From Acidobacteriota bacterium (GTDB lineage Bacteria; Acidobacteriota; Polarisedimenticolia; J045): a DNA stretch of 35,702 nt. The notes below the pieces were generated by a model. The model did not search any database. It saw only the letters and a program-made list of their open reading frames with translations, and was not told where the DNA came from. Each line of letters opens with the position of its first letter. Positions within the stretch are counted from its first letter, which is position 1. The position numbers were made by a program, and so were the translations under genes. Location of the stretch: contig RFHH01000047.1 of the NCBI GenBank assembly GCA_003696075.1, positions 1 through 35,702 on the forward strand. The letters run 5' to 3'. This document shows positions 26,215 through 34,811 of the stretch, in pieces.

Positions 26215-26742
26215 TCAGCCGAGCTTCTCCGCCCAGACGCGGTCCTCGAGACGCTGCACGATCTCGTCGGCGATCTCCTCCGGAGGGCGGCCGAGCGGTT
26301 CGACGATCAGGTCGGCCTCCTCGTAGATCGGGCGGCGCTGCTCGTACAGGGTGGTGAAGCGCTCGTTGCTCTCGTCGTCCGGGCGGAGCTGGCCCCGCTC
26401 GATGGCGCGCGCGAGGCACTCCTCGAGCGACGCGTCGATGAACACGGAGACACCCGACTGCTGGATGGTGCGCCGGTTGCCCCTATCGGTGAACGTGCCC
26501 GGCCCCGTGACGATCACGCCCGGGGGGCCCGTCGCCACGGCGACCAGCGCCCTCCGCTCCCGCTGGCGGACGCTGCTTTCGCCCTCCTTGCGGTACAGCT
26601 CGGCCAGCGGCATCCGTGCGCTCGCCTCGATGACAGCGTCGGTGCTGAACAGAGGGCGGTCGATCTTGTCCGCGAGCGCCCGCCCGACCTCGTCGGTCCC
26701 CGAACCGAAGAAACCGACGAGAAAGATGCGATCCGGAATCAT
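26215..26742 (-). CDS. Shikimate-kinase-like protein with degenerate P-loop
   Basis: A 175-residue protein clearly built like shikimate kinase: STDAVIEASARMPLAELYRKEGE (with Asp35), SVRQRERRAL (Arg59), VSVFIDASLEECLAR, LRPD and RFTTLYEQRRPIYEEADLIVE. But the P-loop, normally GxxGxGKST, reads GFFGSGTDEVG (10-20), so Thr16 replaces the essential ATP-binding Lys, and Asp-Glu follow. The GGG that normally contacts shikimate reads GPG (80-82). Several residues changed together, so a single sequencing error cannot explain it. It is therefore probably not a kinase, though a binding role is possible. The ATG at 26742 overlaps the DUF1684 stop by 4 bp. Confidence 0.8.
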   Translation of the reverse strand: MIPDRIFLVGFFGSGTDEVGRALADKIDRPLFSTDAVIEASARMPLAELYRKEGESSVRQRERRALVAVATGPPGVIVTGPGTFTDRGNRRTIQQSGVSVFIDASLEECLARAIERGQLRPDDESNERFTTLYEQRRPIYEEADLIVEPLGRPPEEIADEIVQRLEDRVWAEKLG

Positions 26743-27452
26743 TTCGTCACCTCGGTCGGCCGGCCCGCCTGTCCGTGCGAGGCCGCCGGGCCGCCCGCGC
26801 CGTGCGCGTCAACCCATCCCCTCTCCCCCGCGCGAACCGGGAAATCGAGCCGGTTCGCCGGTGGGGTCCGGGGGCACTGGTAGCCCGGCTTGCCGTAAGC
26901 GCAGGAAGGATAGTAGGCCAGGTTGAAGTCGAGAACATACCAGTCGTCGATTCCGCCGGCCAGATCGATGTAGCGTCCGGCTCCGTAGGTCTCCACACCG
27001 CTGGTCTCGTCCTGGAACGGAAGGAACAAGCCGCCCCACTCCCGGGGTCCGACGTCGCGCAGCTGGTAGACCTCCAGCTCGCGCCGCACGCCGTCCTGGG
27101 TCCAGACCAGCTTGCCGACGGCCACGGCGGGCCGCCGCTCCCCGTTGGTCGTGGTCATCGGGTGCGGCTTCGGATCGTCGTACCGCTCCAGGTGGGCGAA
27201 GAAACGCAGCGACGGATTGAAGGGATAGTAGTCGAGTCCTTGGAACCGGCGCTTCACCTCCTCGGGGAGAGGGGACTCGGGAGAGGTCTTGAACCACTCG
27301 TTCCGCTCCGCCCGGGCGGCTGCGATCTCCTCCGGCGAGAGGAACCTCAGCCCCGGCGGCGGTCCCTCCGGGCCGGGCGCCGGCGCGCAGCCCGCCAGGA
27401 GCGCGCCCAGCAGGGCCGCCTGGCGTCCGATCGATGCTCCCGCTCGTCTCAT
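26739..27452 (-). CDS. DUF1684 lipoprotein
   Basis: An envelope lipoprotein of the DUF1684 family, whose function is unknown. The N-terminus has a lipoprotein signal with lipobox LLAGC (Cys22 of the ATG 27452 version). DUF1684 features follow: the N-terminal NEWFKTSPESPLPEEVKRRF, FQGLDYYPFNPSLRF, WGGLFLPFQDETSG, TYGAGRYIDL, LDFNLAYYPSCAYG and CPRTPPANRLDFPVRAGE. The ribosome site is not obvious. A TTG at 27473 in frame is another possible start. It shares a 4-bp overlap with the kinase-like gene and follows the YfcC-type carrier by 46 bp. Confidence 0.9.
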   Translation of the reverse strand: MRRAGASIGRQAALLGALLAGCAPAPGPEGPPPGLRFLSPEEIAAARAERNEWFKTSPESPLPEEVKRRFQGLDYYPFNPSLRFFAHLERYDDPKPHPMTTTNGERRPAVAVGKLVWTQDGVRRELEVYQLRDVGPREWGGLFLPFQDETSGVETYGAGRYIDLAGGIDDWYVLDFNLAYYPSCAYGKPGYQCPRTPPANRLDFPVRAGERGWVDAHGAGGPAASHGQAGRPTEVTK

Positions 27453-27498
27453 CGGCGGCGATGATGCACGCAACGGCCGCAGGCGGCCAGCCCGCCGC

Positions 27499-28890
27499 TC
27501 AGGCGTACCCGAGCTGAACGGCCACGACGAGCGCGAGCGATCCCACCACCCAGACCTTGAGCATCAGCGGCGTGACGAAGCGCAGCCACCGGTCGAAGGG
27601 GATGCCGGCCATCGCCAGGATACCCATCAGGACGGCGTTGGTCGGGACGACGATGTTGGTGAACCCGTCCCCGAACTGGTAGGCCAGCACGGCGACCTGG
27701 CGCGTGATGCCGAGCACGTCGGACAGCGGCGCCATCAGTGGCATCGTGACATAGGCCTGCCCGCTGCCCGACGGAATGAAGAAGTTGCACACGCTCTGCA
27801 CCAGGAACATCCCGGCCGCCGCCAGCGAGGGGCCGAGGTGGCGGAGCGGCTGAGCGATTCCGTGGACGATCGTGTCGATCACCTGGGCATCGGCGAGGAC
27901 GAGCTTGATGCTGTTCGCGAAGCCGATGAGCAACGCCGTGGTGGTCAGATCGGTCGCTCCCCGGCAGAACTCGACGGCGATGCGGTCGGCCCCCAGGCCG
28001 CCGACCGCCCCGAGCACGATCGTCAGCCCCAGGAACAGGGCCCCCATCTCGACCAGGTACCAGCCACGGCTCGCCAGACCCCACACCAGCAGGCCCAGCG
28101 CCGCGAAGGTCACGGCGAGCACGGCCACGTGCCGGCGCCCCAGGGCGGGCGGGTCGGACGGCAGCGCGACGGGCGGCGGGCCGAGATCCGAGACCAGCGA
28201 GCGGGACGGCTCGCGCGCGACCTTGGTGGCATAGGACCAGACGTGGTGGATACCGATCGCCAGCATCACCGGCGTGAGCAGCAGGCGGAACCACATCCCG
28301 GAAGCGGGCGGCAACCCGGCGATGTTCTGGGCGATCATGACGGTGAAGGGGTTGAGCACCGCCGTCCCGTAGCCGACCCCGTAGCCGACGCACATGATGC
28401 CGACGCCGGTGACGGCGTCCATCCCCATGCCACGGGCGAGAAGCAGCAGAATCGGGACGAACGGGAGGTACTCCTCCGCCATCCCGAAGCCGGACGAACC
28501 GGCGGCGAAGGCCGTCACGCCGATGGCGATCAACCAGCCGCGCCGGTCGCCGAACCTGCGGAGCAGGAGCCCGATCGAGGCATCGACCGCGCCGGTGGCG
28601 CGGAGGACGGCGAACGCCCCGCCGATGATGAAGACGAAGAAGATGATGTCCTGAACCGAGGCGAAGCCTCGGGGAACGACCGTCAACGGGGTCAGCAGAT
28701 CCCCGACGCCGAAGGGCGCTTCCCGCTCGATCCGGTGATAGGTGCCGGGGACGACGACCTGGTGGCCGTCGTGGTCGTGCCGCTCGTAAGCGCCCGCGGG
28801 GAGCACCAGGCTCGCCAGCCAGGCCAGCACGATCATGCCGAAGAGCAGGACGAGGGTGTGAGGGACCTTGAGACGCCGCTTTTCTGCCAT
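27499..28890 (-). CDS. YfcC-family (C4-dicarboxylate anaerobic carrier type) membrane transporter
   Basis: An integral membrane carrier of 463 residues, related to YfcC and basic amino acid antiporter-like proteins; the substrate is not known. It begins [19 protein letters not shown] and has repeated hydrophobic segments, about 11-12. Conserved pieces are [83 protein letters not shown] and [20 protein letters not shown]. Charged SN..PSGSGQ is the typical C-half motif. GGGGAG is 4 nt before the ATG at 28890, and a GC hairpin (28901-28917) lies just upstream. It is first in the minus-strand block after the helicase. Confidence 0.88.
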
Positions 28891-28900
28891 GGCGCTCCCC

Positions 28901-28917
28901 CCCGGGGCGGCCCCGGG
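28901..28917. other. GC hairpin between helicase and carrier genes
   Basis: CCCGGGG (28901-28907) and CCCCGGG (28911-28917) with a 3-nt loop lie just upstream of the carrier's ribosome site and 10 bp after the helicase stop. The A-run (28920-28925) is on the wrong side for either strand to be a standard terminator, so a translational role is as likely. Confidence 0.45.
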
Positions 28918-28926
28918 CCAAAAAGG

Positions 28927-31917
28927 TCACCAGTCTACCGGAATCCGGCCCACCTCACCGCGCCGGCTGCGGAACAGGACGTATCCGTGCCGGCGCCCGT
29001 ACGCCCACAGGGCGGCGGTCAGGAGGACGTCGCGCCGGCAGTAGCGCTCGATGAGATCGAACCGGCCCTGCTTGACCCACTCGAGCGACTGGAGCCCGTT
29101 CGCCGTTTTCTCGATGCCGAGGGTGGCGGCGGCGAGGTGCGCGAGGGAGAGCCGGAAGCCGAGCCGCGCGTGGATCGCCCGGAGGAGATCGAGCGTCGCG
29201 ACCCGGCTCAGGTCGGCCCTGGCGTAGGGGGCCAGCACGGCGAGGTCGAACCGCTCGATGTTGAAGCCGACGACGCGGTCGGCCCCCAGCAGCTCGTCCA
29301 CGAGAGCGTCGGCATCCGATTCGCGGTAGGAGCGGAACCTTCCCGTCCCTGCGTCCAGGCAGACGGCCAGGGCCAGCCCCATCCCCGCGATGTTCCCCCA
29401 GCCGCCGACCTCCTCCGCCCCGCGCAGCGTTTCGACGTCGAAGAAGATCCAGCGGCCCTCGCCGGGGCGGAGCAGCTCGGAGGGAGGCGGCAGATCGGGC
29501 GGCCAGCCGGCCTCTTCGAGCCCCGCCGGCGCCGGTGTGTCGCTCCGGGCATCGAAGAAACCGGGCGGCAGCGGGCCGCCGCCCCGAACGCCGGGATGCC
29601 GGGCGGAGCGATGGGAGGCGAGCGCCGCCTCCGCGGCCGCCTCCGCCGCGCGGCCGCCGGGACGGAGCCGCTCGGCCCCGAGGAGCAGATCCAGCACCCG
29701 AACCGCCCCCTCCTTGTCGAGCGGCTGGTTGCCGGACCCGCACTTGGGCGAATGGACGCAGGAGGGGCAGCCGTCCTCGCACGGGCAGCCGGAAACGAGC
29801 TCCCGCGTCCGGGCAACGAGCCGCTCCGCGCGGTCGTATCCGGTTGCCGCCAGGCCGATGCCTCCCGGCCACCCGTCATAGACGAAGACCGCGGGACCGC
29901 CGAGCTGAGGGTGCTGGGCGTAGGAAATGCCGCCGAGATCCCAGCGATCGCAGATGGCCTCGAGCGGGAAGAGGCCGATCAGCGCGTGTTCCGCCGCGTG
30001 CAGCGCGCCGGCGGGATGGTGCTCCGCCTGCACCAGGTGGACGACGGTTTCCCGTGGGAGTTCGAACCAGAATCCATGCGTCTCCAGCACGAGCGGCGGC
30101 GCCTCGAGAGGATGGCGCGAGATCTCCTCTTGCCCGAAGATGCGGCGCTTCGAGTAGCCTTCGACGAACGTCGTCACGCGCAGGCGTCCGCGCGCCAGCG
30201 TCGCGGGGCCGACCGACCTCGCCTCCTCCCGGGAGAGGATCTCGGTTTCCTTCCGCGCGTAGACCTGTGTGAAGTAGTCGACCTGCGCCGGTTCGAGCAG
30301 AACCCGCCGCTCCTCGCGTTCCAGCGCGAGAACCCGGTAGGACTGACCGCCGTGCAGGTAGATGGCGCCCGGATGCCCTTCGAACCAGACCCGCGCCTCG
30401 TCGAGAGTGCCGAGCCGGCGCCCGTCGGACGCGCGCACCAGCTCGTAGGCGATCCCGGCACTCCGGAGCGAGATGCTCCTCTGGGGTCGCCGCCGCAGCA
30501 CGAACCAGCGCTCGGCATCGTGCTGCCTCAGGACGCGTCCCTCCCTCTCGAGGCGCCGGAGCCGCTCCGGGCCGGCCTCTCCCTGGAGAAATCGCGCGTC
30601 GTCGAGATCGAGGGAGCGCTCGGCGGCTGCGGCCTCGAGGTGCGCCGCCGCGATCGATTCGTTTCCCGGATCGAGAACGACGCGCTCGAACTCGCCGGAG
30701 AAGAAGTGCTCCGGGTGGGAGACGACGTACTGGTCGAGGGCATCCGGCATCGCCACGAGGACGGCGAGAGATTCGCGGTCCGAGCGCCCGGCCCGGCCGA
30801 TCCGCTGCCAGGCCGTGGCCAGCGAACCCGGATAGCCGACGAGCACGCAGACGTCGAGACCGCCCACGTCGATCCCCGCCTCGAGCGCGGACGTGCTGAT
30901 GACGCCGTCGAGTTCCCCGGAGAAGAGCCTCCGCTCGATCTCGCGCCGCTCTTCCGGGAGGTACCCGGCCCGGTACGGCGACACTCGCCGCGCGAGTTCC
31001 GGCTCGCTCTCGGCCAGCCAGCGGTGCATCAGCTCGGTGATGCGCCGCGCCTTGGTGAAGGCGATTGTCTTGTGCCCCGCTTCCACAGCGCGGGCCACGA
31101 CGCGCGTGGCGACCGTGTAGGGGCTCGCCATCGTCGGCGAGAGAAACAGGACGTGACGGGCCGGCCGGGGGGCTCCCGAGTCGCGGATCACCTCGAACGG
31201 CTCTCCGGTGAGGGTCCGGATGAACTCCTCGGGAGCACCGATCGTCGCCGATCCGGCGATCAGCCGCACGCTCCCCCCCTCGTGCCGGACGAGGCGCATG
31301 AGGCGGCGGAGAACGTGATGCACGTGCGCCCCGAAGACCCCGCGGTAGACGTGCGCCTCGTCGATCGCGATCAGCCGGAGTCTCGCCAGCCAGCCCGACC
31401 AGCTCTCGTGGTAAGGAGCGAGGCCCAGGTGAACCATGTCGGGGTTCGTGATCAGAACGGCGGGTGGACGCCGCCGGATCCGGCGCCGCTCGCGGTCGGG
31501 GGTGTCACCGTCGTAGACCGCGGCCGCACGATCCGGCTCCAGCCCGAGAGGGACCAGGAAGGCACGCACGGCTTCGAGCTGGTCCCGGGCCAGCGCCTTG
31601 AGCGGATAGATGAACAGGGCCCGGGCCTCCGGATCCTTCTCCCGGGCCGCGAGGTAGGCGAGCAGGTAGGCCAGGGTCTTCCCGGAGGCCGTCGGCGTCG
31701 CCAGCAGCACGTTGCGGCCGCCCGCGGCGAGATCGAGCGCTTCCCGCTGGTGGCTGTACAGGCGCTCCACCCCGGCGCCGCGGAGGGCCGGTTCCGCGCC
31801 GGCGGGCAGCGGGCCGCCGGGATCCCACCGGGGCGGCCGCGCCGGGGAGAGGCCGCGGTAGACGACATGGCCTGCCAGCCTCGGGTCACGGCAGAGCCTG
31901 CTGACGAACCGCTCCAT
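28927..31917 (-). CDS. MrfA-MrfB fusion: DEAH-box helicase with DUF1998 zinc motif and DEDDy exonuclease
   Basis: A 996-residue two-part protein. The first part is a superfamily 2 helicase of the MrfA/YprA type: Walker A ATPTASGKT (73-81), DEAH (186-189), SATIGAPEEF, STSALEAGIDVGGLD, QRIGRAGRSDR, and the C-terminal DUF1998 cysteine cluster C711-C713-C717-C720-C726. The second part, from about residue 815, is a polymerase-B-like 3'-5' exonuclease fold with D827-x-E829, D891 and Y959-x3-D963, the DEDDy catalytic set, as in MrfB/YprB. In Bacillus subtilis mrfA and mrfB are separate genes acting together on mitomycin C damage. Here they are one chain joined by an Ala/Pro-rich linker (about 745-815). 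It follows the HDAC-family gene by 10 bp on the same strand. Confidence 0.92.
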   Translation of the reverse strand: MERFVSRLCRDPRLAGHVVYRGLSPARPPRWDPGGPLPAGAEPALRGAGVERLYSHQREALDLAAGGRNVLLATPTASGKTLAYLLAYLAAREKDPEARALFIYPLKALARDQLEAVRAFLVPLGLEPDRAAAVYDGDTPDRERRRIRRRPPAVLITNPDMVHLGLAPYHESWSGWLARLRLIAIDEAHVYRGVFGAHVHHVLRRLMRLVRHEGGSVRLIAGSATIGAPEEFIRTLTGEPFEVIRDSGAPRPARHVLFLSPTMASPYTVATRVVARAVEAGHKTIAFTKARRITELMHRWLAESEPELARRVSPYRAGYLPEERREIERRLFSGELDGVISTSALEAGIDVGGLDVCVLVGYPGSLATAWQRIGRAGRSDRESLAVLVAMPDALDQYVVSHPEHFFSGEFERVVLDPGNESIAAAHLEAAAAERSLDLDDARFLQGEAGPERLRRLEREGRVLRQHDAERWFVLRRRPQRSISLRSAGIAYELVRASDGRRLGTLDEARVWFEGHPGAIYLHGGQSYRVLALEREERRVLLEPAQVDYFTQVYARKETEILSREEARSVGPATLARGRLRVTTFVEGYSKRRIFGQEEISRHPLEAPPLVLETHGFWFELPRETVVHLVQAEHHPAGALHAAEHALIGLFPLEAICDRWDLGGISYAQHPQLGGPAVFVYDGWPGGIGLAATGYDRAERLVARTRELVSGCPCEDGCPSCVHSPKCGSGNQPLDKEGAVRVLDLLLGAERLRPGGRAAEAAAEAALASHRSARHPGVRGGGPLPPGFFDARSDTPAPAGLEEAGWPPDLPPPSELLRPGEGRWIFFDVETLRGAEEVGGWGNIAGMGLALAVCLDAGTGRFRSYRESDADALVDELLGADRVVGFNIERFDLAVLAPYARADLSRVATLDLLRAIHARLGFRLSLAHLAAATLGIEKTANGLQSLEWVKQGRFDLIERYCRRDVLLTAALWAYGRRHGYVLFRSRRGEVGRIPVDW

Positions 31918-31927
31918 TCCGGCGCTC

Positions 31928-33781
31928 TCAATCCTCCGCCGCGTTCGGGCGGATCACGAATCTCGCCGCTTCCCGGGCCGCGGCCCGTTTCCGCTCGTAC
32001 TCCTCGCCGCCGATCCGCTCCTTCAGCGCCGGGGAGACGGCAAGGACCATCGGGGCCGGCTCCCAGCGCACGGGCCTGCCGGTGGCCGCGTCGACGACTC
32101 GTCCCTCCTCGAGCAGGCGGTTCGCGACCGCGAGCGGCATGCCGGCGAGCCGCTGCCTCATCGCCTCGAAGCGCCCCTGGCGCTCGGGGTCGAGGAAGCG
32201 GAGGAGGCGGCTCGACTGGGCGGCCATGTGGTAGTGTGCCGGCACGAACAGCAGCCCGTCGAGTCCGAGCCTCTCACACGCGAGAACCAGGAGGGCGACC
32301 ACGTCGCGGAGAAGGCCGAGCCCGGGGTGCTGCTGGCCCGGGAGCGGCGGCCGATCCGGCGGAAAGACCGCGCGTGGATTCTGCAGGAGCAGCCACTCGA
32401 CCGCGAGGAGGCGGAACCCCGGCACGGCGTCGTCCCTCGAGCGCGCCCTGAGCTCCCCGAGGAGCTCCCGCCGGTCCGGATCGCCGTAGAGCCGGACCAC
32501 TTGTCCTGCCTCCCCCGAGAGATCGAACTCGAGCACGGGGTGAGCGAAGCCGAGCTGACGGATGCGCTCGAGCAGCCCGAGCCGCTCGAGCGCCACCTCG
32601 ACCCCGTGCGGGGAGTAGAAACCGAGGAAGCGGTCGGCTCCCGTGCGCAGCCCGAGGGCGGGGGCGATGTCCTCCGCCGTCAGAAGGAGCCCCTCCCCTC
32701 CCCGCGGGGCCGCGAGCAGCTCCTCGTCGAGCCGCTGCGCCGCCGCGCGGTACCGCCCGAGCACGAGCTCCTCGGTGGGCGGGGGCTCGTCGCGCCTCCC
32801 GCCGGACAGGATCCTGCCCAGCCACCGTGCGGTGGGCCGCCACGCGTCCGGGCCGTAACCGCCTCCGAGGAGGACGACGAGACCCGGCCGGCCCGCGGCT
32901 CTCCGAACGGCCTGGTAGACGGCCAAGTCGCGAGCCAGGAGCCCCTCCGGCGTGAGACGCCACGTGCCGCGGGGATCGGACGCCGCCCCGTCGACGCCGG
33001 CGACGTAGAAGACCAGGCGCGGCCGGAACCGGAGCAGGATCGCCGGAAGCTCGCGCCGGAGGGCGCCCAGCAGCTCGGCGTCGCCGACGTCGTGCCCCAG
33101 GGAGACGCTGGTCGACTCGACCGCCGCGGTCGGAGCCCAGTGGTCGGCGTGGATCGAGAAGGTGTGGACGGTGGCGTCCCCGGCAAACAGGAGGCGGGTG
33201 CCGTCACCGTCGTGCATGTCGAGATCGACGACCAGCACCCGGCCGTCGAACCCTTCGCGGCGAAGCGCCGCCACCGCGACACCGATGTCGTTCACGAGAC
33301 AGAATCCGCCGGCGCGGGCGCGGCGCGCGTGGTGAAGTCCGCCGCCGAGGTTGACCGCCAGCGGCCGCCGGCCGAGGGCGGCGCGGGCGGCCAGAACGGT
33401 TCCCCCCGCCATCGCGCGCTGCATCGCGACGATCCTGTCGAGCTGAGGGGGGTCCAACTCGAACCCGAACGCGTCGCGCGCGGTCTCGGGGCTTTCGAGG
33501 GCCGCGACGTAGGTCGGATCGTGAACCTCCTCCAGGTCGCGGACGCTCGCCGGCGGCGGTCGAACGACGCGGGAGGGCAACAGGCCGCGGGAATCGAGGA
33601 AGGCGAGGATCCGCTCCCCCCTGTGGCGGTCGACGTCGCTCGACGGCAACGCCTGGGAGTATTCCGGGCCGTGCACGAACAGCGCCCGGCGTCGCGCCAG
33701 CCAGCCGCCCAGAAAGAACGGGCGGCACGGCACCGGGGGAAGCGGAGGGCCGCGCCGTTCCGTTGAGCGCCTCCCGGTCAT
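31928..33781 (-). CDS. Histone-deacetylase-family (arginase/deacetylase fold) enzyme with C-terminal module
   Basis: The N-terminal domain (about 35-345 of 617) is a class I/II-type deacetylase. It has GGGLHHA with His150-His151, GFCLVNDIG, the zinc ligands D188-x-H190 in DLDMHDGDG, D264 in AGVDGAASD, and catalytic Tyr309 in LGGGYGPD. Substrates in bacteria are acetylated amines or polyamines and proteins; none can be chosen here. About 270 further residues (345-617) contain QQHPGLGLLRDVVALL, LDGLLFVPAHYHMAAQ and RGRVVDAATGRPVRW, a module I cannot name. I took the ATG at 33781; an ATG at 33850 would add 23 residues, but a -10-like GATAAT overlaps it. Confidence 0.88.
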   Translation of the reverse strand: MTGRRSTERRGPPLPPVPCRPFFLGGWLARRRALFVHGPEYSQALPSSDVDRHRGERILAFLDSRGLLPSRVVRPPPASVRDLEEVHDPTYVAALESPETARDAFGFELDPPQLDRIVAMQRAMAGGTVLAARAALGRRPLAVNLGGGLHHARRARAGGFCLVNDIGVAVAALRREGFDGRVLVVDLDMHDGDGTRLLFAGDATVHTFSIHADHWAPTAAVESTSVSLGHDVGDAELLGALRRELPAILLRFRPRLVFYVAGVDGAASDPRGTWRLTPEGLLARDLAVYQAVRRAAGRPGLVVLLGGGYGPDAWRPTARWLGRILSGGRRDEPPPTEELVLGRYRAAAQRLDEELLAAPRGGEGLLLTAEDIAPALGLRTGADRFLGFYSPHGVEVALERLGLLERIRQLGFAHPVLEFDLSGEAGQVVRLYGDPDRRELLGELRARSRDDAVPGFRLLAVEWLLLQNPRAVFPPDRPPLPGQQHPGLGLLRDVVALLVLACERLGLDGLLFVPAHYHMAAQSSRLLRFLDPERQGRFEAMRQRLAGMPLAVANRLLEEGRVVDAATGRPVRWEPAPMVLAVSPALKERIGGEEYERKRAAAREAARFVIRPNAAED

Positions 33782-33847
33782 CGCGCCCGCCGCGCTCCTC
33801 CGCCAACGGGGAAGCCCCGAACCGCGCGCTTCCCGATCCGGACGTGC

Positions 33848-33853
33848 CATTAT
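33848..33853 (-). promoter_or_regulatory. Candidate -10 box for the deacetylase-helicase unit
   Basis: GATAAT on the minus strand lies about 67 bp before the deacetylase ATG. No clear -35 is 17 bp upstream. If used, the earlier ATG at 33850 could not be in the message, which favours the start at 33781. Confidence 0.35.
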
Positions 33854-33898
33854 CGTCCGTGCCGGCGTGCCGCGGCGCTTGCCGGCCGGAGGGTCTCG

Positions 33899-34693
33899 TT
33901 GGTCGCCGCTTACCTCACCGGGGAGGAACGCGACCTGTTCGACGCGTGGCTCGCGGAAGCGGTCGCGCGCTGGCGCGAGCTCCTCACCTTCACCGAGATC
34001 CGGCGCGGGGTGCAGGCGCTGTCCGAACTCTACCGCGGAGGCGGGAGCGGCCCCGACCTGGCGGCCCGCGCCCTGGCGGGACGGGGGAAGCGCGCCGCGC
34101 TCGCCACCTACTGGTCCGCGCTGCATTACGTGACCGTTCACCACGTCCTGCTGGCGATCGGACCGAAGCGCCTGGGATCTCCCGCTCGGGTGATCGACGT
34201 CGGCTGCGGCACCGGCGCGACCGGGGCGTCCGCGGCCCGTGCGCTCGGCGCGGTGCGGGTTCTCGGTCTGGATCGCTCGCCGTGGGCGGCGGAGGAGGCG
34301 CGCCGCACCTACGCCGCGTTCCGGTTGGAGGGCCGGGTGCGCCGGACGACCCTCCCCGCCGGGATGCCGCGGGCCGGACCCGGCGTCCTCGTGGCGGTGG
34401 GATGGCTGGCAGCGGAGCTGGACGAGGCGGGGCGCCGGTCGCTCCTGGCGCGCCTCGACCGCTGCGTCCGCGCCGGGGGGCGGGTGCTCGTCTGCGAGCC
34501 GGCGGCGGCGCGGCGCGCCCCGTTCTGGCGAGAGTGGGCCAGCCGCCTCGCCGGCCTGGGGGTGCGGGAAACCTCGCTCCGCGTCAGCGTGGAGCGTCCG
34601 GACTTCGTGCGGGAGATGGACGGCGCCGCCCGGCTCGACCATCAGGTGCTCGGCGCGAGCGTGCTCTGGGGGCCGCCGGCGGATGCGGGGTGA
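33899..34693 (+). CDS. Class I SAM-dependent methyltransferase, Rsm22-like
   Basis: A 264-residue methyltransferase with motif I VIDVGCGTGATG (98-109), the acidic end of strand 2 in LGLDRSPWAAEEA, and a later GGRVLVCEPAAARR. The helical N-terminal region (LTFTEIRRGVQALSELYRG, then GKRAALATYWSALHY) resembles the region before the Rossmann fold in the small ribosomal subunit Rsm22 family, but I cannot prove that the substrate is ribosomal. The TTG start at 33899 has GGAGGG 5 nt upstream. It is divergent from the deacetylase, with 117 bp between the chosen starts. Confidence 0.78.
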   Translation: MVAAYLTGEERDLFDAWLAEAVARWRELLTFTEIRRGVQALSELYRGGGSGPDLAARALAGRGKRAALATYWSALHYVTVHHVLLAIGPKRLGSPARVIDVGCGTGATGASAARALGAVRVLGLDRSPWAAEEARRTYAAFRLEGRVRRTTLPAGMPRAGPGVLVAVGWLAAELDEAGRRSLLARLDRCVRAGGRVLVCEPAAARRAPFWREWASRLAGLGVRETSLRVSVERPDFVREMDGAARLDHQVLGASVLWGPPADAG

Positions 34694-34694
34694 C

Positions 34695-34746
34695 CGCGGC
34701 CGCTCGGACCGCCGCCCTCGAGCCGGGGCGGCGGTCCGGGGCCGCG
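34695..34746 (+). terminator. Long two-tier stem-loop after the methyltransferase
   Basis: The inner stem CGGACCGCCGCCC (34705-34717) with GGGCGGCGGTCCG (34726-34738) is 13 bp perfect with an 8-nt loop. An outer 7-bp stem CGCGGCC (34695-34701) with GGCCGCG (34740-34746) extends it. It begins right after the stop codon. No T-run follows, so it may be a Rho-aided or U-less terminator, or a 3' protector. Confidence 0.5.
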
Positions 34747-34811
34747 CGGAGGAGAGAGTCGGTCCGGCAGAGAGGGCGGAGCCCACTCGGGGCAGGTCCG
34801 CCTGTCCGCCA

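Follow-up and report, generated by a model that had tools for sequence, protein, structure and literature searches.

A MrfA-type helicase fused to a putative DEDDy exonuclease that probably takes the place of MrfB in an Acidobacteriota lineage

The window is the whole 35,702-nucleotide stretch of DNA analysed here, from contig RFHH01000047.1 of an Acidobacteriota bacterium. On its minus strand lies a gene that is read without interruption from an ATG start through 996 amino acids (translation of 28927-31917) and that encodes a helicase followed by an exonuclease. An earlier note on this DNA had described the two halves in one unbroken frame without stating the strand; this description holds, and the residue positions that it gave (C711-C726, D827, E829, D891, Y959, and D963) are all correct. 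The features of the gene and of the region downstream are as follows.

28927..31917, minus strand: whole gene for the 996-aa helicase-exonuclease fusion, stop codon included (open frame, full-length homologs)
29683..31917, minus strand: MrfA/YprA-type SF2 helicase with MZB zinc domain, residues 1-745 (6znp, Foldseek, TIGR03817)
31237..31755, minus strand: RecA1 (DEAD, residues 55-227) with Walker A ATPTASGKT, DEAH box, and SAT (PF00270, 99.3 bits)
30781..31086, minus strand: RecA2 (Helicase_C, residues 278-379) with motif VI QRIGRAGR (PF00271, 55.8 bits)
29755..29994, minus strand: MZB/DUF1998 domain, residues 642-721 (PF09369, 80 bits, cut-off 24.2)
29452..29682, minus strand: linker, residues 746-822, differing among homologs in both length and sequence (pLDDT, homolog alignment)
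28930..29451, minus strand: DEDDy exonuclease domain, residues 823-996 (model pLDDT 93.8, Foldseek/VIA)
29431..29439, minus strand: Exo I motif D827-x-E829 (D in 38/38 and E in 38/38 fused copies)
29245..29247, minus strand: Exo II D891 (D in 37/38 fused copies, one D891A)
29029..29043, minus strand: Exo III Y959-x3-D963, the DEDDy signature (Y in 38/38 and D in 38/38 fused copies)
26215-27473, minus strand: DUF1684/shikimate-kinase-like region (also at loci L018, L026, L031, L032, L038, L040, L042, and L154)

The G+C content of the fusion frame by codon position is 0.77/0.51/0.88, as is typical of a real gene in a G+C-rich genome, and its product is the sole MZB-domain protein of the 3.29-Mb, 98.6%-complete source genome. 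Homologs in independent assemblies keep the fusion at full length with 41-69% identity, which rules out chance or mis-assembly. An assembly artefact, which the earlier note had named as a possible refutation, was rejected because the same fusion recurs in many independent genomes (30/199 sampled in the phylum). One copy from the same family as the source genome (L018 in G003) is interrupted in frame by a TAG at about residue 37 and has its Exo II Asp (D891) replaced by Ala; it may be decaying or bear sequencing errors.

The genes around the fusion encode a DcuC transporter, a DUF1684 protein, a shikimate-kinase-like protein, and a deacetylase-like protein; no defence-type partner gene was found beside the helicase at the locus, where the neighbours are metabolic or transport genes. 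In several genera, a DUF1684 gene follows the fusion on its downstream side, in several cases together with a shikimate-kinase-like gene, and in the window the DcuC gene (27499-28890) sits between the fusion and this region. A downstream ORF of 493 aa at 27449-28930 was discarded as a wrong frame, the real gene there being DcuC. On the other side, a minus-strand ORF (31928-34786) that ends ten bases upstream of the fusion contains a histone-deacetylase-type domain (PF00850, 168 bits), and the first third of this ORF is probably non-coding.

The identification of the N-terminal part as a MrfA-type helicase, as the earlier note had proposed, is supported by both sequence and fold. Residues 42-723 match the solved Bacillus subtilis MrfA structure 6znp with an E value of 1.7e-127, and the top four Foldseek matches of the full-length model are MrfA structures, the best again being 6znp (E 2.3e-54). 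PF00270 and PF00271 score above their cut-offs, and the SF2 motif residues are mostly invariant in 10 homologs. The Cys cluster at 711-726 extends slightly beyond the end of the MZB domain, and C711, C713, C717, C720, and C726 are invariant across the compared homologs. TIGR03817 is the best NCBIfam model for the fusion protein, with 709 bits against a cut-off of 874, but this model is not discriminating, since MrfA proteins adjoining true mrfB genes also score only 658-667. By analogy with B. subtilis MrfA, the helicase presumably has 3'-5' polarity.

That the C-terminal part has an exonuclease fold and a complete DEDD set is likewise supported: all four acidic residues are conserved in 38/38 fused copies except D891, which is conserved in 37/38. 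The fifth catalytic residue, however, is Tyr in 38/38 fused copies and His in 19/19 operonic MrfB proteins of the phylum. B. subtilis MrfB is a DEDDh enzyme with a C-terminal TPR domain (PMC11194089), whereas the fusion has no TPR domain; its chain ends 33 residues past D963, and the model places the end of a helix and two strands there. In a Foldseek/VIA search with the exonuclease domain, T7 and family B DNA polymerases were on top among the matches listed, and the polymerase matches fall mostly on proofreading domains (first match: Z 14.2, rmsd 3.3, 158 residues). This search cannot separate MrfB from a PolB exonuclease, because the nearest folds of MrfB are also the proofreading domains of family B polymerases (PMC11194089), and the absence of the MrfB structure 8un9 among the matches listed carries no weight. 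From its fold class, the domain would be expected to act in the 3'-5' direction.

The two domains are joined by a linker of about 75 residues, of which 770-798 are predicted to be disordered (pLDDT below 50), and homologs have 51-96 poorly alignable residues from K735 to the start of the exonuclease. The full-length model has a pTM of 0.53. The helicase and nuclease domains are thus tethered, and the predicted model gives no support for rigid docking. The suggestion that the fusion would reveal the geometry of a MrfA-MrfB complex was not borne out; with a linker that varies in length and is partly predicted to be disordered, the fusion says little about geometry.

To compare the fused nuclease with candidate families, profiles were prepared with sequences from genomes of the source phylum, and 38 fused domains were scored. 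All of them (38/38) preferred the PolB-exo2 profile (mean 33.9 bits) over that of MrfB (mean 10.6), so that by profile score another RNase H-like family matches the C-terminal part better than YprB, the outcome that the earlier note had named as refuting its reading. In hhalign comparisons, the fused family was closest to PolB-exo2 (E 1.3e-12), followed by short DEDDy RNase_H_2 proteins (E 3.7e-10), both closer than MrfB whether taken as operonic (1.1e-6), other (2.6e-7), or all pooled (2.3e-8). The short subfamily (L110, L111, L112, L115, and L168; about 280-350 aa) has Tyr where MrfB has His, and it also occurs in some fusion genomes. Neither a phmmer search of the PDB with the fused exonuclease domain nor a comparison with 8un9, as a single sequence or as a profile, gave a match, and the fused-domain profile had marginal PDB matches only, for example, NrnC and T7 polymerase; as a control, one operonic MrfB of the same phylum matched 8un9 with an E value of 2.1e-33. 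In a tree of 80 domains, the fused family grouped with PolB-exo2, apart from MrfB and the short RNase_H_2 proteins (support 95). It does not simply belong to DNA_pol_B_exo2 (PF10108), with which, as with the family B and T7 proofreading domains, it shares the DEDDy set and the fold and gives its best profile match: it forms a separate clade, and the window's copy scores 17 bits, below the cut-off of 24. The fused nuclease is therefore probably a distinct DEDDy family within the same superfamily, other than MrfB, as judged from these sequence comparisons.

The main alternative is a true fusion of MrfA with MrfB, followed by loss of the TPR tail and a change from His to Tyr in the MrfB part. The fused nuclease occupies the same functional slot, MrfB is missing from the fusion genomes, and a 2025 preprint describes YprA fused to MrfB/YprB homologs (PMC12458937). 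In addition, the isolated fused domain passes the cut-off of RNase_H_2 (PF13482; 24.9 bits, cut-off 22), a family that also contains MrfB, and the AU test did not reject a common group of the fused domains and MrfB (p 0.29), long branches meeting in the tree; these points count against a substitution. The RNase_H_2 profile, on the other hand, had no match in the whole-genome scan or on the whole fusion protein, and MrfB proteins of the same phylum score about 115-150 bits with it. The alternative is further opposed by the preference of every fused copy for PolB-exo2, by the closer short DEDDy RNase_H_2 profile, and by standalone relatives of the nuclease that coexist with an MrfB-type gene (G041 and G053) and branch outside the fused copies, and we consider it unlikely. 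The proposal of the earlier note that MrfA and MrfB are joined in one chain accordingly stands for the MrfA half and for the single polypeptide, but not for the identity of the second half, which has a Tyr as its fifth residue, lacks the TPR domain, and scores higher with the PolB-exo2 profile. These features, together with the lack of MrfB in the fusion genomes, argue for a substituted exonuclease.

The genomic distribution bears on the same question. Among the 199 genomes sampled from the source phylum, 30 have a MrfA-type helicase fused to the nuclease (29 scripted detections and G178, with an 874-aa frame). An RNase_H_2 gene adjoins 32 helicase loci, directly downstream in 31 and upstream in one, which encodes a 1124-aa MZB helicase (L162, G072:C89), and for 26 further loci such a gene lies elsewhere in the same genome. 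About 30 loci of the phylum encode genuine MrfB (DEDDh) immediately 3' of mrfA. Canonical MrfB was found in 0/30 fusion genomes; the strong RNase_H_2 matches in G055, G119, G146, G162, and G186 are other DEDDy subfamilies. The presence of MrfB (0/29 fusion genomes vs 54/60) gives a Fisher p of 7e-18, which overstates the evidence because the genomes are related and the counts are phylogenetically clustered. That the helicases are either fused, beside an RNase_H_2 gene, or accompanied by one elsewhere, with no MrfB in the 30 fusion genomes, speaks for replacement. Our preferred reading, to which we give a probability of roughly two in three, is a chromosomal repair enzyme in which a MrfA-type helicase acquired a putative 3'-5' DEDDy exonuclease that replaces the DEDDh enzyme MrfB, probably through one fusion.

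The fusion occurs in every sampled genome of the window's class save G002, whose contig ends inside the gene, and outside this class in families f11, f36, f51 (G161), and f23. Beyond the phylum sample, its occurrence is given solely by loci with full-length fusions in records whose titles read Thermodesulfobacteriota, Desulfobulbaceae, Desulfofustis, and 'Deltaproteobacteria'. In the helicase tree, a branch with an SH-aLRT of 82 separates the fused helicases from those of MrfB-bearing and other genomes on the opposite side (support 97); this speaks for a single origin, although the support for one fused clade is moderate. Standalone relatives of the nuclease are present in G041, G053, G078, G087, G141, G153, and G196; none adjoins a helicase, and in the domain tree they mostly branch outside the fused copies. 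Judging from these sequences, the nuclease gene was most likely free-standing at first and was joined to the helicase in a single event, and the possession of both genes by G041 and G053 suggests that the nuclease family existed alongside MrfB. A different case is G021 (L091), which has no MZB helicase at all and whose nuclease stands alone but is nested among fused copies in the tree; this gene probably reflects loss of the helicase half.

Human WRN, a member of the RecQ family, combines a 3'-5' SF2 helicase and a DEDDy 3'-5' exonuclease, the latter N-terminal, in a single chain. The fusion shares this combination of helicase and DEDDy nuclease, and the likeness would be convergence. We lean slightly toward a history in which the MrfA of this lineage was fused once to a formerly separate, non-MrfB DEDDy exonuclease and MrfB was lost, converging on the WRN-like combination.

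Two further explanations are very improbable. An RNA-directed enzyme, in which the helicase and an RNase D/NrnC-like DEDDy domain would act in RNA turnover, is hinted at by a weak profile likeness to NrnC and DNA_pol_A_exo1, but the nearest solved helicase is a DNA helicase (MrfA, 6znp) and the PolA-exo1/RNase D profile was the poorest of those compared against the fused domain. An anti-phage defence system of YprA type (DISARM, Druantia, or ARMADA) with a nuclease effector was rejected: such systems do include YprA-family helicases with C-terminal nucleases (PMC12458937), but the gene context described above has no defence-type partners and recurs in part in several genera, the fusion is near-universal in its class and vertically coherent, unlike typical defence genes, and no relative of the fusion was found on viral contigs.

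For the preferred repair enzyme, a putative role in lesion processing like that of MrfAB is most likely. MrfA is a 3'-5' helicase that, together with MrfB, removes monoadducts or intrastrand crosslinks of mitomycin, a function that exists besides UvrABC (PMC11194089; PMC12458937). Complementation by MrfAB reportedly requires alleles from close relatives (PMC12458937). For the fusion protein, we infer both the substrate and the role in adduct repair. The helicase would load onto a single-stranded 3' end or gap beside a bulky adduct or crosslink and would then translocate 3'-to-5', driven by ATP hydrolysis. The exonuclease, held on its flexible linker of about 75 residues, would trim the exposed 3' end, and the removal of nucleotides would leave a gap for resynthesis. 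A tethered 3'-5' exonuclease could digest the tracking strand from its 3' end behind the motor, or ends released by the motor.

Compared with MrfA/YprA and MrfB/YprB of B. subtilis, the fusion agrees in the order of its helicase domains, in the MZB cysteines, in fold, and in the pairing of the helicase with a DEDD exonuclease, but it is one polypeptide with a DEDDy instead of a DEDDh nuclease and no TPR domain, and in the tree its nuclease does not fall within the MrfB clade, although this placement is not conclusive. Staphylococcus aureus DinG (SaDinG) is similar in that an SF2 helicase is fused to a 3'-5' exonuclease and linked to mitomycin C tolerance; it differs in its N-terminal DEDDh exonuclease, its 5'-3' helicase, and its position in another SF2 branch (PMC12345164). 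YprA fusions to 'MrfB/YprB homologs' are already mentioned in the 2025 preprint (PMC12458937), and these may be the proteins described here, or a set neighbouring them, within the part of the YprA tree assigned to DNA repair; the main text names the nuclease an MrfB/YprB homolog, does not contain the term 'DEDD', and does not discuss the DEDDy type or the relation to MrfB. We did not find a description of the fused nuclease as a DEDDy enzyme that is closer by profile to a non-MrfB family and replaces MrfB genome by genome.

If this reading is true, what the MrfAB pathway conserves is the pairing of a helicase with a 3'-5' exonuclease, not MrfB itself, and two different exonuclease families occupy the partner slot of MrfA. 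The fusion would then test what MrfB contributes through its TPR domain, its DEDDh chemistry, and its proposed activation on DNA. It would also provide an obligate 1:1 helicase-exonuclease enzyme that can be assayed where the interaction of separate MrfA and MrfB is hard to catch.
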